DNA from: a virus
IMG/VR virus record: IMGVR_UViG_3300025687_000221
Coordinates: 1-29,193 of that record
Direction: 5' to 3' (one strand)
Length of the DNA: 29,193 bases
Below, in pieces: positions 25,835 to 29,193 of the stretch. The position numbers and the translations under genes are program-made. The notes under the pieces are model-generated. The model was given only the letters and a program-made list of their open reading frames with translations. It had not been told where the DNA came from and searched no databases. The first letter of the stretch is position 1. Each line of letters opens with the position of its first letter.

Positions 25835-25904
25835 GGATAATGGAAACGTAGTAATGTTTTTCTATTCATATTTTGCAAAAAGACCGATGACGATCGGTTT
25901 TTTT
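25835..25904 (+). ncRNA. Possible 70-nt RNA between P1 and a terminator
   Basis: The expected start of P1 (about 25835) and the end of the terminator (25904) would define a transcript of about 70 nt with no convincing ORF. It could be a small regulatory RNA, or the arrangement may only insulate the regulator from the late operon. Confidence 0.35.
25883..25904 (+). terminator. Intrinsic terminator
   Basis: ACCGAT (25883-25888) and ATCGGT (25893-25898) form a stem with a GACG loop, followed by seven T. The A-run before it would also allow some termination from the opposite strand. It would stop both late-operon read-through and P1 transcripts. Confidence 0.75.
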
Positions 25905-25917
25905 GTTTCCAAAAATA

Positions 25918-25946
25918 TTGACAAAAATAGAATAAAAATGTAGTAT
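25918..25946 (+). promoter_or_regulatory. Promoter candidate P2 for the HTH gene
   Basis: A consensus TTGACA (25918-25923) is 17 bases from TAGTAT (25941-25946). TGGAAAC sites lie on both sides (25905 and 25953). Transcription would start just before the HTH gene at 25977. Confidence 0.72.
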
Positions 25947-25976
25947 GAAAAGTGGAAACCTTACAAACAAATAACT

Positions 25977-26138
25977 ATGCTCAAAAAGAAAAGATTAAAG
26001 GGTTTAAGAAAAAGAAAAAAAATAGCTAAATATAGGCAAAAAGGACTCTCATATAGAGAGATTGGCAGACTCATGAAACTATCACATACTGCTATTATGA
26101 AGCTACATAAAAGTGGAAACCTTTATCCACAGAAATAG
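25977..26138 (+). CDS. 53-residue helix-turn-helix regulator
   Basis: The product has a very basic N-terminus (MLKKKRLKGLRKRKK) followed by YRQKGLSYREIGRLMKLSHTAIMKL, which reads as a helix-turn-helix of the resolvase/sigma-region-4 type (first helix about 17-23, recognition helix about 35-44). It starts in context ACTATG behind a good promoter and is too short for most gene callers. The cluster of TGGAAAC sites around it suggests autoregulation and control of the next promoter, whose TTGACA begins two bases after its stop. Activator or repressor cannot be told. Confidence 0.68.
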   Translation: MLKKKRLKGLRKRKKIAKYRQKGLSYREIGRLMKLSHTAIMKLHKSGNLYPQK

Positions 26139-26139
26139 T

Positions 26140-26168
26140 TTGACAATAGTTTCCAGTATTGGTACTAT
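26140..26168 (+). promoter_or_regulatory. Promoter candidate P3 for the long structured RNA
   Basis: TTGACA (26140-26145) and TACTAT (26163-26168) are 17 bases apart. A GTTTCCA site (26149-26155) lies within the spacer and TGGAAAC (26114) lies just upstream. Transcription should start near 26175. Confidence 0.72.
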
Positions 26169-26174
26169 AAGAAT

Positions 26175-26520
26175 GTTGAACATTACAACTCAACACGAGG
26201 CCGTTGCAAGCCCATCATAAAGATAATATTATCTAGCAACGCCTCACAAGGGCGTTGTTTGCTTCTGTGAGGTGATAAGAGGCTCCCGATGAGGGTTATG
26301 GCCAATTGCAACCTTATCGCCTCACACAAGCCAAAATTAAGCTGAATAATGACGTGCTAGATACACAGTAAACCTTACAGGAATGTAAGAGACCTAGTAT
26401 CGCTAAAGTAGCGCATTGTATGGCTTAAATGGTTACAGCATAGCCCGTAGATAAGCTCTTTGTTCGCCTATATGGGAACTGACTCTTGGTATGTAGTCAA
26501 GACACTATTTACGGGCTTTT
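26175..26520 (+). ncRNA. Long multi-helix non-coding RNA, about 345 nt
   Basis: No ORF fits this gene-free stretch, but many helices do. GAGGCCGTTGC (26197-26207) pairs with GCAACGCCTC (26236-26245), with an inner AGATAATATTATCT hairpin. TGTGAGGTGATAAG (26266-26279) pairs with CTTATCGCCTCACA (26313-26326). AAGCC (26328-26332) and ATACA (26361-26365) pair with TGTAT-GGCTT (26417-26426), enclosing a GGAA-tetraloop hairpin (26374-26389) and CGCTA/TAGCG (26401-26413). AGCCCGTAGATA (26442-26453) pairs with TATTTACGGGCT (26506-26517), enclosing two hairpins (26462-26479, 26480-26499). I see no tmRNA, tRNA or group I intron signature. It could regulate, prime replication or act in packaging. Confidence 0.68.
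26442..26520 (+). terminator. Closing stem and possible terminator of the long RNA
   Basis: A 12-bp stem with one G-T pair ends in TTTT (26517-26520). The T-tract is short and the loop holds two hairpins, so termination may be incomplete and let early genes be transcribed from P3. Confidence 0.45.
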
Positions 26521-26555
26521 GCTGGCAATTAATTTATTAACTAACACCCTGCAAT

Positions 26556-26750
26556 ATGTTAGAAAACACACTACAGTGGCTCAATAATCAACAACTAACA
26601 CTTGATGAAGCACTAGAGCCAGATATAACCGTTTTACCTATCAAAGGTAAATTACACGAACAAATAATGGCCGAAAAAGTAGACCGAATGATTGATGAAG
26701 CAAAAGAAAGAGGAAAAGATGGCCGACTCATTATTAGATCAAATTATTAA
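26556..26750 (+). CDS. Hypothetical early protein, 64 residues
   Basis: The product is acidic in the middle (LDEALEPDITVLPIKGK) and helical at both ends, ending in KERGKDGRLIIRSNY. It starts in context CAATATG, 36 bases after the long RNA's closing stem, and is the first gene of the early operon. No motif is recognised. Small early phage proteins like this often take over or inhibit host functions; that is only an inference from position. Confidence 0.55.
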   Translation: MLENTLQWLNNQQLTLDEALEPDITVLPIKGKLHEQIMAEKVDRMIDEAKERGKDGRLIIRSNY

Positions 26751-26767
26751 TTCACAATACATACAGT

Positions 26768-27028
26768 ATGAAAAAAACACTTGGGATGTGCTTCCATGAA
26801 AGCATACAAAAAAACCCTCCACGGTCAATGAAGGGTAAATTCGCTAGATTCGCAAGAAAGATCAATGCGATAACTAGAATGTCTTTATTCGATAATCAAA
26901 AAGATTCTATCAGATTAAAAATGGTTCGTCAACGGTATAAGGCAGCTCTTAGAGAGAACCAAATCTTAAAAGAATATATTGATGAGATTTATAGACAAGC
27001 TGGTCAGCAAGAAACAATAATTCACTAG
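26768..27028 (+). CDS. Hypothetical basic early protein, 86 residues
   Basis: From residue 21 the product is a basic helical protein (MKGKFARFARKINAITRMSLF) with a coiled-coil-prone second half (RQRYKAALRENQILKEYIDEI). The first ATG (context CAGTATG) fits the local start rule, but the first 20 residues look unlike the rest. An internal ATG at 26828 is reachable through a chain of overlapping tiny ORFs (26719-26799 and 26796-26831). Nucleic-acid binding is plausible from charge. No family is recognised. Confidence 0.5.
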   Translation: MKKTLGMCFHESIQKNPPRSMKGKFARFARKINAITRMSLFDNQKDSIRLKMVRQRYKAALRENQILKEYIDEIYRQAGQQETIIH

Positions 27029-27031
27029 AAT

Positions 27032-27517
27032 ATGGAAGAAATTAAGAAAAAATTACCTATATCATTAGAGGAAATGCTTAAAAAACCACTTCCTAGCGCA
27101 GCAATTAAACAACATAGCCAAAAAAAATATCTGTCTACTATTGATCCAGCATATATAATTGAAAGACTTAACGATGTATTTGGGATAGGCGGATGGCATG
27201 TTGAGCATGAAATTATTCTAAGTAATGATTCACAAATTGTTGTACGAGGAAGACTCGAAATTCCACACTATGAGATTAAAACTTCTTATCAATATGGAGG
27301 TTGGCAAGATAAAAATGAAAAAATGGAAATTGGAGATCGTTATAAAGCTGCTGTTACTGATTGTTTTGGAAAATGCGCTAGTTATTTAGGAATTGGGCTT
27401 GACGTTTACAAAGGCATTCAAAAACCAAAACAAGAATCACAACAAAAGACAAACCAAACAACTAGAGAGCCCGACGTATCAAACGAAGAACTAACTAATT
27501 CATATATTCCTTTCTAA
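27032..27517 (+). CDS. RAD52-like single-strand annealing protein
   Basis: The 161-residue product carries the RAD52/RAD22 core: YIIERLNDVFGIGGWHVEHE (about 41-60), VVRGRLEI, SYQYGGW and EIGDRYKAAVTDCFGKCASY, followed by LGIGLDVYKG. Phage members anneal complementary single strands during recombination-dependent replication. The tail after residue about 130 is Gln/Lys/Asn/Thr-rich and disordered, ending NSYIPF, like the tip of SSB proteins. It is followed at once by an SSB-like gene ending DDIPF, suggesting both use a shared SSB-interaction partner. Length is typical of short phage RAD52-like proteins. Confidence 0.88.
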   Translation: MEEIKKKLPISLEEMLKKPLPSAAIKQHSQKKYLSTIDPAYIIERLNDVFGIGGWHVEHEIILSNDSQIVVRGRLEIPHYEIKTSYQYGGWQDKNEKMEIGDRYKAAVTDCFGKCASYLGIGLDVYKGIQKPKQESQQKTNQTTREPDVSNEELTNSYIPF

Positions 27518-27848: not shown

Positions 27849-28004
27849 CCACTACGTGGATTACAATAACCATTACAGAACTATCTCGGTTCTGTACCGC
27901 CTTATCATTCTTAGAGTGCCCCCTCCTTCACTCTACATGTTTGATAAGGCGATACAGGGTTGAGAGGAGCTGCTAGCGCTAGCCAATGCAGCTCTATTCT
28001 CCCC
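27849..28004 (+). ncRNA. Folded region with four hairpins after the SSB-like gene
   Basis: Directly after the stop come CCAC/GTGG (27849-27859), CAGAAC/GTTCTG (27876-27894), a 10-bp stem CGCCTTATCA / TGATAAGGCG (27898-27907, 27942-27951) holding an inner AGAGTG/CACTCT hairpin, and GAGCTGC/GCAGCTC (27967-27973, 27988-27994), extended by GGG-GAGA/TCTC-CCC pairing. Its loop region overlaps the palindrome GCTAGCGCTAGC (27972-27983). No ORF fits. No T-tract follows. It could be a 3' protective structure for early mRNA, a separate RNA, or a protein-binding DNA site. Confidence 0.5.
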
Positions 28005-28033
28005 TACACAACTAACCGATAATCATGTATAAT
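28005..28033 (+). promoter_or_regulatory. Promoter candidate P4 before the replication genes
   Basis: A perfect TATAAT (28028-28033) is 17 bases from TACACA (28005-28010), which matches four of six -35 consensus bases. Transcription should start near 28040, at the head of the pseudoknotted leader. Confidence 0.65.
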
Positions 28034-28039
28034 AAAGGC

Positions 28040-28164
28040 ACAACTCAACTTCCCCAAGCAAAGAACGATAAAAAGACTATAAGAGTGATTCACCGATACG
28101 GTAGCCAATCCGTAGCCCTTTCTTTGCAGGGTGGGAACGGTGAATTACTCCTATAGTTTTTTTT
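28040..28164 (+). ncRNA. Pseudoknotted leader RNA with terminator
   Basis: A long outer stem (28076-28095 with 28138-28157; one mismatch, one G-T) encloses TACGG/CCGTA (28097-28101, 28110-28114) and CCCT/AGGG (28116-28119, 28128-28131). The latter has an 8-base loop, TTCTTTGC (28120-28127), fully complementary to GCAAAGAA at 28058-28065 upstream, giving a pseudoknot. Eight T follow the outer stem. The layout is that of a riboswitch or attenuator gating the genes at 28168 and 28373; a free-standing small RNA or replication-primer RNA is the alternative. No known class is recognised. Confidence 0.65.
28076..28164 (+). terminator. Intrinsic terminator / attenuator before replication genes
   Basis: The outer stem of about 20 pairs and T(8) at 28157-28164 lie three bases before the start codon at 28168. 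Genes behind it need read-through, antitermination or refolding of the leader. Confidence 0.72.
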
Positions 28165-28167
28165 ATT

Positions 28168-28380
28168 ATGAATATTCAATTCTCGCAAATACCCATCTCA
28201 TTTATGGAAGACCATAGTCTCTCTCTTGAGCTTAAAGGTTTACTTTCAATGATTATAGCTTACGGTGATGACTGGGAAATAAACATTGATGAGCTACTAA
28301 AATATACAAAAGAAACATCTAGAGAACATATCACTAGTTTACTTTATGAATTGAAAGAAAGGGGGTTTTTGTATGAATAA
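28168..28380 (+). CDS. Small winged-helix protein
   Basis: The 70-residue product resembles the N-terminal winged-helix domain of phage replication proteins: SFMEDHSLSLELKGLLSMI, then WEINIDELLKYTKETSREHI with the recognition helix near 46-57, and ELKERGFLYE as the wing. It overlaps the initiator gene by eight bases (ATGAATAA), so translation is coupled. It may bind the origin or regulate the initiator. It could also be a domain that split from a longer initiator. Confidence 0.68.
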   Translation: MNIQFSQIPISFMEDHSLSLELKGLLSMIIAYGDDWEINIDELLKYTKETSREHITSLLYELKERGFLYE

Positions 28381-29193
28381 TGGATGGATCAAAATACATA
28401 GAAAGATTTTACAGTGGGAATGGTATACAGACGCTAATACCTTTAGACTGTTCGTCCACTGCTTACTCAAAGCAAATCATGAGCCTAAAAAATGGCGTGG
28501 ACATCCTGTTGATAAGGGTGAATTTATTACAAGTTTATCCACATTATCGAAAGAATTAGGCATGAATATTCAACAAATTCGTACCTCATTAAACAAACTA
28601 TCACTAACACACCAACTAACACACCAAACTAACACAAAATTTAGCTTAATAAAGGTAAAAAATTACGATTTTTATCAAGACACTAACACACCAACTAACA
28701 CACGGGTAACACACAAATCAACACACCAACTAACACACAAATCAACACACCAACTAACACACCAAAATAGCCAAAATAAACAGTCAACACAGCCAAAAAA
28801 TACAAAAAAAGAAGAGACGACTAACACACCAACTAACACACCACCTAACACACAAATCAACACACAACCTAACAACAAACAAGAATATAAGAATATAAGA
28901 AATAATATATATACATCAAATTCATCAAAAGAATCTTTTAAGTCATCAAAGATGACTGTGAGTAACTTTGAAGATTTTTGGAAAGAGTACCCAAGGAAAA
29001 TAGCAAAGGCTACAGTGAGGAGTAAGTACTTGAAGCTTCCTAGTGAATTACAAGAAACGATACTTGAATCCGTTAGGAGGTATAAGCAGACCAAACAGTG
29101 GCAAGAGAATAACGGCCAATATATACCCCATCCTACTACTTGGGTAAATCAAAGACGCTGGGAAGATGAACTCAATGCTTGTCAGTTCAAATC
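28373..29193 (+). CDS. Replication initiator / replisome organizer (partial, runs off the window)
   Basis: At least 273 residues in an open frame to the window edge. The N-terminal domain (1-85: GWIKIHRKILQWEWYTD, GEFITSLSTLSKELGMN, QQIRTSLNKL) is a winged helix of phage replisome organizers. A Thr/Asn/His/Pro/Gln repeat linker (about 80-165) follows, then a conserved C-terminal domain starting FEDFWKEYPRKIAKATVRSKY, with YIPHPTTWVNQRRWEDEL. Such proteins bind origin repeats and load helicase. The linker is encoded by DNA repeats that look like the origin itself. Start ATG is in context TGTATG. Confidence 0.8.
   Translation, partial: MNNGWIKIHRKILQWEWYTDANTFRLFVHCLLKANHEPKKWRGHPVDKGEFITSLSTLSKELGMNIQQIRTSLNKLSLTHQLTHQTNTKFSLIKVKNYDFYQDTNTPTNTRVTHKSTHQLTHKSTHQLTHQNSQNKQSTQPKNTKKEETTNTPTNTPPNTQINTQPNNKQEYKNIRNNIYTSNSSKESFKSSKMTVSNFEDFWKEYPRKIAKATVRSKYLKLPSELQETILESVRRYKQTKQWQENNGQYIPHPTTWVNQRRWEDELNACQFK
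28604..28868 (+). repeat. Fourteen copies of a 12-bp repeat: probable origin iterons
   Basis: Near-copies of CTAACACACCAA begin at 28604, 28616, 28629, 28683, 28695, 28706, 28718, 28730, 28742, 28754, 28821, 28833, 28845 and 28857. Seven are read as Leu-Thr-His-Gln-type codons and seven as Thr-Asn-Thr-Pro-type codons, so the DNA is conserved while the encoded peptide is not. This is the expected signature of protein-binding iterons in a replication initiator gene. Confidence 0.8.
28881..28914 (+). other. AT-rich stretch beside the iterons (unwinding element candidate)
   Basis: Apart from a few G and C the 34 bases are all A and T, with two copies of AGAATATA followed by ATAATATATATA. Lying 12 bases after the last iteron, it is a natural site for first strand opening at an origin. 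Confidence 0.55.

Follow-up and report, generated by a model that had tools for sequence, protein, structure and literature searches.

The window analysed here is a linear virus record taken over its whole length of 29,193 bases, in which structural genes (~2.2–25.7 kb) are followed by a small helix-turn-helix (HTH) gene and then by recombination and replication genes; the features described below lie on the plus strand unless stated otherwise. The late (structural) operon is closed by a hairpin with a T run at 25882–25906 (AAAAAGACCGATGACGATCGGTTTTTTT), whose stem is palindromic and which the scan listed on the minus strand. Behind it, a promoter-like site (25918–25946; TTGACA-17-TAGTAT, 10/12) precedes the small gene at 25977–26138, which encodes a 53-aa HTH protein, likely a regulator, matching Pfam HTH_38 at an E value just above the cut-off (2.9e-6) and also giving PHROG HTH matches. 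Two copies of a 15-nt exact repeat, AAAAGTGGAAACCTT, with an operator-like TGGAAAC core, are found at 25948–25962 and 26109–26123, and five of the ten TGGAAAC sites present on both strands of the window fall within 25841–26155, around this gene. Judged from sequence, the TGGAAAC cluster, the 15-nt repeat and the HTH gene together look like an autoregulated switch. Downstream, an operon begins with a 64-aa ORF of no known family (26556–26750), followed by an 86-aa ORF that begins MKKTLGMCFHES (26768–27028), a Rad52-like single-strand annealing protein (27032–27517; Pfam PF04098, E 1.1e-8) and, further on, a 70-aa winged HTH protein of the replication-initiation type (28168–28380; phrog_4707, E 1.5e-8). 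The DnaD-like replication gene contains repeated AACACACCAACT units at 28600–28880, possibly an origin or linker region.

The gap between the HTH gene and the 64-aa ORF (26139–26555) contains no ORF of at least 50 aa, in agreement with the initial annotation, which had described 26140–26520 as free of genes and preceded by a good promoter. That promoter (26140–26168) is of the sigma-70 type, TTGACA-17-TACTAT, scoring 10/12 with TG before the −10 element. Behind it lies a predicted structured leader RNA, which we call RNA1 (26172–26521; predicted start ~26175, length ~345–350 nt), with a GC content of 0.429 compared with 0.357 for the whole window. Given that TGGAAAC sites cluster at the HTH gene and that the spacer of RNA1's promoter contains an inverted copy (26149), the sequence suggests that the 53-aa HTH protein may control this promoter. 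The closing hairpin of RNA1 ends 35 nt before the ORF at 26556, and the promoter scan listed no promoter between the two, which suggests that expression of the operon relies on read-through. A putative leader peptide of 15 codons at 26172 was rejected, its length being expected by chance.

The fold of 26168–26524 reaches −117.9 kcal/mol (z −5.24), a value equalled by none of 100 shuffles, and 26201–26400 on the plus strand had the top z (−6.5) among 580 windows of 200 nt covering both strands of the whole stretch; all four RNA1 sub-domains also beat their own shuffles (z −3.1 to −5.2). Although conservation of RNA1 is not detectable, these values, the raised GC content and the lineage-wide excess of structured gaps described below make it highly unlikely that RNA1 is functionless, with a structure arising from chance or from drifting duplicated pieces. 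We also consider it very unlikely that the inverted repeats work at the DNA level, either within a replication origin or as a protein-binding site, with the RNA fold as a by-product. RNA1 does adjoin recombination and replication genes, the direct repeat AAAAGTGGAAACCTT is nearby, repeated AAGTTGTCAC occurs in a gap of this kind in the relative G003, and the minus strand folds well too (z −5.8). However, the fold of the plus strand is the better one (z −7.4 versus −5.8; −6.5 versus −2.9 at 26201–26400), RNA1 contains no iterons, and several key helices include G-U pairs, which on the opposite strand would be A-C mismatches.

Within RNA1, all three long helices reported initially (14, 12 and 10 bp) were located, and several pairings exclude one another. 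Helix H1 (26197–26245), formed by GAGGCCGUUGC (26197–26207) and GCAACGCCUC, has a sub-domain z of −5.14, appears earliest in growing-chain folds and is mutually exclusive with the 10-bp hairpin PB (26235–26259; arms 26235–26244/26250–26259). The 9-bp helix PC (26240–26274), in which CGCCUCACA pairs with UGUGAGGUG (26266–26274), excludes both PB and the 14-bp helix PA (26266–26326; arms 26266–26279/26313–26326; −20.9 kcal/mol). The segment GCAACGCCUCACA (26236–26248) has three partners, namely GAGGCCGUUGC upstream (H1), GGGCGUUG just downstream (PB) and UGUGAGGUG (PC), while the best partner of UGUGAGGUG is the second CGCCUCACA copy (PA). The sequence said to end two tandem stems is indeed present twice (CGCCTCACA, at ~26240–26248 and ~26319–26327), and the alternative pairing of CAACGCC with GGCGTTG, noted earlier, is a real feature of the sequence: it belongs to the minimum-energy fold and competes with GAGGCCGUUGC and UGUGAGGUG. 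Forced full-length folds gave −113.9 kcal/mol for H1 with PA, −112.9 for PC and −117.9 for PB with PA, the competing helices differing by only ~4–5 kcal/mol, and the minimum-energy folds of the growing chain passed from H1 to alternating PB and PC and then to PB with PA. These folding models make a structural switch among H1, PB and PC possible. The remainder of RNA1 comprises a long, branched domain that includes a hairpin capped by GGAA (26328–26433; z −3.05) and a 12-bp closing hairpin followed by TTTT (26442–26520; arms 26442–26453/26506–26517; z −4.11).

The closing stem and its TTTT were present as first described, but the terminator is weaker than that description implied. Only four T stand behind the stem, and the hairpin encloses a 52-nt branched loop, which is why a simple terminator scan missed it; it looks like a weak intrinsic terminator. 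An 8-bp helix (26293–26300/26439–26446; −9.7 versus −16.5 for the closing stem) shares bases with the 5′ arm of this hairpin and is a candidate anti-terminator that, taken alone, is not beyond chance. For the closing hairpin (26442–26517), no significant flank-to-loop pseudoknot was found (p 0.71; second test, p 0.58).

Judged by its position, promoter, structure and closing hairpin, RNA1 most likely serves as a leader adjusting how much transcription reads through into the recombination genes, and with roughly even confidence we infer that RNA1 is a cis-acting leader or attenuator of the operon beginning at 26556. Transcription would start at the promoter at 26140–26168, and a structured RNA of ~345 nt would be made, followed by the closing hairpin and a short U run before 26556. 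The mutually exclusive helices (H1, PB or PC, followed by PA and the closing hairpin) would set how frequently polymerase reads through, and the leader would act as an attenuator or early-expression timer, while the truncated leader may be a stable small RNA as well. We infer the transcription and termination of RNA1, the switch and its trigger from sequence and predicted folds. Among the functions offered initially, a regulatory role fits best because RNA1 lies between a promoter and an operon and the leaders of relatives are similarly placed, while nothing points to packaging. The lambda pR′ leader, with 6S RNA and tR′, resembles RNA1 in combining its own promoter, a structured RNA several hundred nt long, a terminator and an operon; it stands before late genes and depends on protein Q, whereas RNA1 stands before recombination genes.

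With its own promoter, a closing hairpin with a U run, a significant fold and a high GC content within an AT-rich genome, RNA1 could instead be a free-standing, trans-acting small RNA (antisense, host-factor decoy or 6S-like) equipped with its own promoter and terminator. We regard this as unlikely, since the 64-aa ORF lying 35 nt downstream without a listed promoter suits a leader better, Rfam offers no match, and complementarity between RNA1 and the second structured element, RNA2, extends over 7–8 nt only. It is quite unlikely that RNA1 acts like put of phage HK022, the nascent RNA binding the elongating polymerase with the result that early-operon terminators are ignored. Put is much shorter than RNA1, and the host polymerase is a different one. 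On the other hand, RNA1 lies right behind an early-type promoter, and several stable stem-loops could form during growth of its chain. HK022 put is likewise a structured nascent RNA from a phage early region and works as nascent RNA alone (PMC9378689).

As the initial annotation had judged by eye for GOLLD and ROOL, RNA1 matches no known family: Rfam returned no match at the gathering cut-off in the whole window and none at E up to 5 for 25900–26800 (GOLLD, ROOL, group I intron and tmRNA included), and ARAGORN found no tRNA or tmRNA. GOLLD and ROOL are, like RNA1, large structured phage RNAs, but RNA1 is shorter and has no Rfam match. The further claim of a new RNA class was not supported: searches with blastn, DNA patterns and covariance models brought up no second member. 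With blastn, GenBank phages, related loci and related phage records (~85 related sequences) contained no RNA1 homologue, and a DNA search of 380 genomes of one Patescibacteria-type phylum gave only chance-like matches of 22–31 nt. Stem and DNA patterns in IMG/VR recovered no homologue either. Single-sequence covariance models of two RNA1 sub-domains found no second member in 1.34 Mb of related phages, and covariance model R1 had no match over the 380 genomes, in a search run without a positive control. Bait proteins (Rad52-like, 86-aa ORF and terminase) yielded few or no contigs extending into the RNA1 region, and the same-species contigs L002 and L003 end short of it. Across all searches, RNA1 thus appears at present to be a singleton.

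Several candidates from the pattern searches were rejected. Seven IMG/VR stem-pattern matches had little in common beyond the pattern, their number was not above a rough chance estimate, and the sole one checked (L009) lay inside an ORF. The GGAA-hairpin pattern had four matches in IMG/VR, near the chance number; two of these adjoin motifs recalling group I introns, and Rfam detected no group I intron at those matches.

Relatives of the major capsid protein occur in a TM7 phage, in a Manatee Spring phage and in 182 IMG/VR stretches (the best 80 of the 182 were kept). Two bacterial MAGs, one of Berkelbacteria and one of Jorgensenbacteria, also encode relatives, and both belong to the candidate phyla radiation. 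Because these relatives include the TM7 phage and the two MAGs, the phage probably infects Patescibacteria, which are very small parasitic bacteria. A Shine-Dalgarno-like core was found upstream of 1 of the 34 window genes inspected, and a weak one at that. Shine-Dalgarno-bearing genes make up 0–14% in most close relatives (26% in G017) and 42–74% in distant capsid relatives (G042, G045, G040, G044, the TM7 phage and the Manatee phage); the window and its close relatives are a Shine-Dalgarno-poor phage clade. One record of 56139 bases (G007; L130–L132) carries capsid, portal and terminase homologues in two sets and, by this gene content, reads as two joined phages or tandem prophages.

Structured gaps are frequent among the relatives, with z below −5 in 28 of 156 intergenic pieces from 22 relatives, which were chosen by capsid gene and not by structure, versus 2 of 54 from five unrelated phages; gap calling was simple (ATG ORFs of at least 45 aa, 15 shuffles per gap) and the control set consisted of five phages. 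One of the two control gaps below −5 is lambda 44816–45185 (L178; z −7.0), which we take to be the 6S/tR′ leader region. Rfam found nothing in the lineage records tested. Several structured gaps open with a near-consensus promoter and run up to a start codon, as seen ahead of the G016 portal gene and the G004 replication gene. G016 also has a structured gap followed by a hairpin with a T run abutting an ATG, a 68-aa ORF and an ORF with the motif KTLxxCxHxS, which is shared with the 86-aa window ORF at 26768 over an alignment of 19 residues (E 4e-4, small sequence set). On this gene order, the G016 gap is a possible positional counterpart of RNA1. It is most likely that the lineage has a habit of placing intricate RNA structures, some of them pseudoknotted, in front of genes, RNA1 included.

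The second structured gap of the window, RNA2 (27849–28167), lies 1.3 kb downstream of RNA1, just before the replication-initiation gene, and has a stronger z (−8.25). It contains a promoter-like site (28005–28033; TACACA-17-TATAAT, 10/12) and a pseudoknotted T-tailed hairpin (28052–28163; stem 28070–28095/28138–28163), in which CCCC..GCAAAGAA (28052–28065) is predicted to pair with the loop sequence TTCTTTGC.GGG (28120–28131). Promoter, 5′ segment, long hairpin with complementary loop, U run and ATG follow in this order, with the start codon (28168) 4 nt past the hairpin. The flank-loop helix of RNA2 has 8 bp (p 0.037). Among near-start T-tailed non-coding hairpins (ATG within 30 nt, n=11), the flank-loop match beat loop swapping (p 0.001), and among other T-tailed hairpins (n=35) it was not above loop swapping (p 0.66); these layout p-values are somewhat optimistic because the layout was spotted by eye before being tested on overlapping data. 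A duplex-energy test of the pseudoknot was not discriminating, and contiguous-helix tests were used instead. Relatives have the same order of elements in unrelated sequences, and the layout precedes replication-initiation or DnaD-like genes at 28168 in the window, 34830 in G004 (an element that fell out of the final scan and was measured on its own), 7632 in G012 and 10611 in G013, four genes whose best matches are different PHROG families.

Comparable elements cited in PMC10724649 are the ColIb-P9/IncI repZ leader, which has a pseudoknot, and attenuators of the pT181 type; they share with RNA2 a pseudoknot or an attenuator-type hairpin placed immediately ahead of a gene for a replication initiator. 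RNA2 differs in being phage-borne and in that its pseudoknot links the loop of the T-tailed hairpin with the sequence on the 5′ side of that hairpin, and an antisense promoter was not found: no minus-strand promoter of at least 9/12, as for the antisense RNA of IncI-type control, was listed in 27849–28400.

Tentatively, Shine-Dalgarno-poor Patescibacteria phages might use leader RNAs that are conserved in architecture and divergent in sequence for recombination and replication genes, the family being pseudoknotted T-tailed hairpins near start codons and RNA1 an enlarged multi-state version. To our knowledge, gene regulation in Patescibacteria phages is almost unstudied. If true, lineage-wide structured leaders before replication genes would imply RNA-level control of phage replication in reduced-genome hosts, a reading for which the Shine-Dalgarno-poor genomes of most members would provide a context, and RNA1 and RNA2 are concrete elements on which it can be tested. 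Elsewhere among the relatives, iteron-like repeats (AAGTTGTCAC/GTGACAACTT) occur within a structured gap of G003 (L147, 6742–7189), and in the TM7 phage two divergent genes flank a gap with very strong structure (L008, 13947–14253; z −12).
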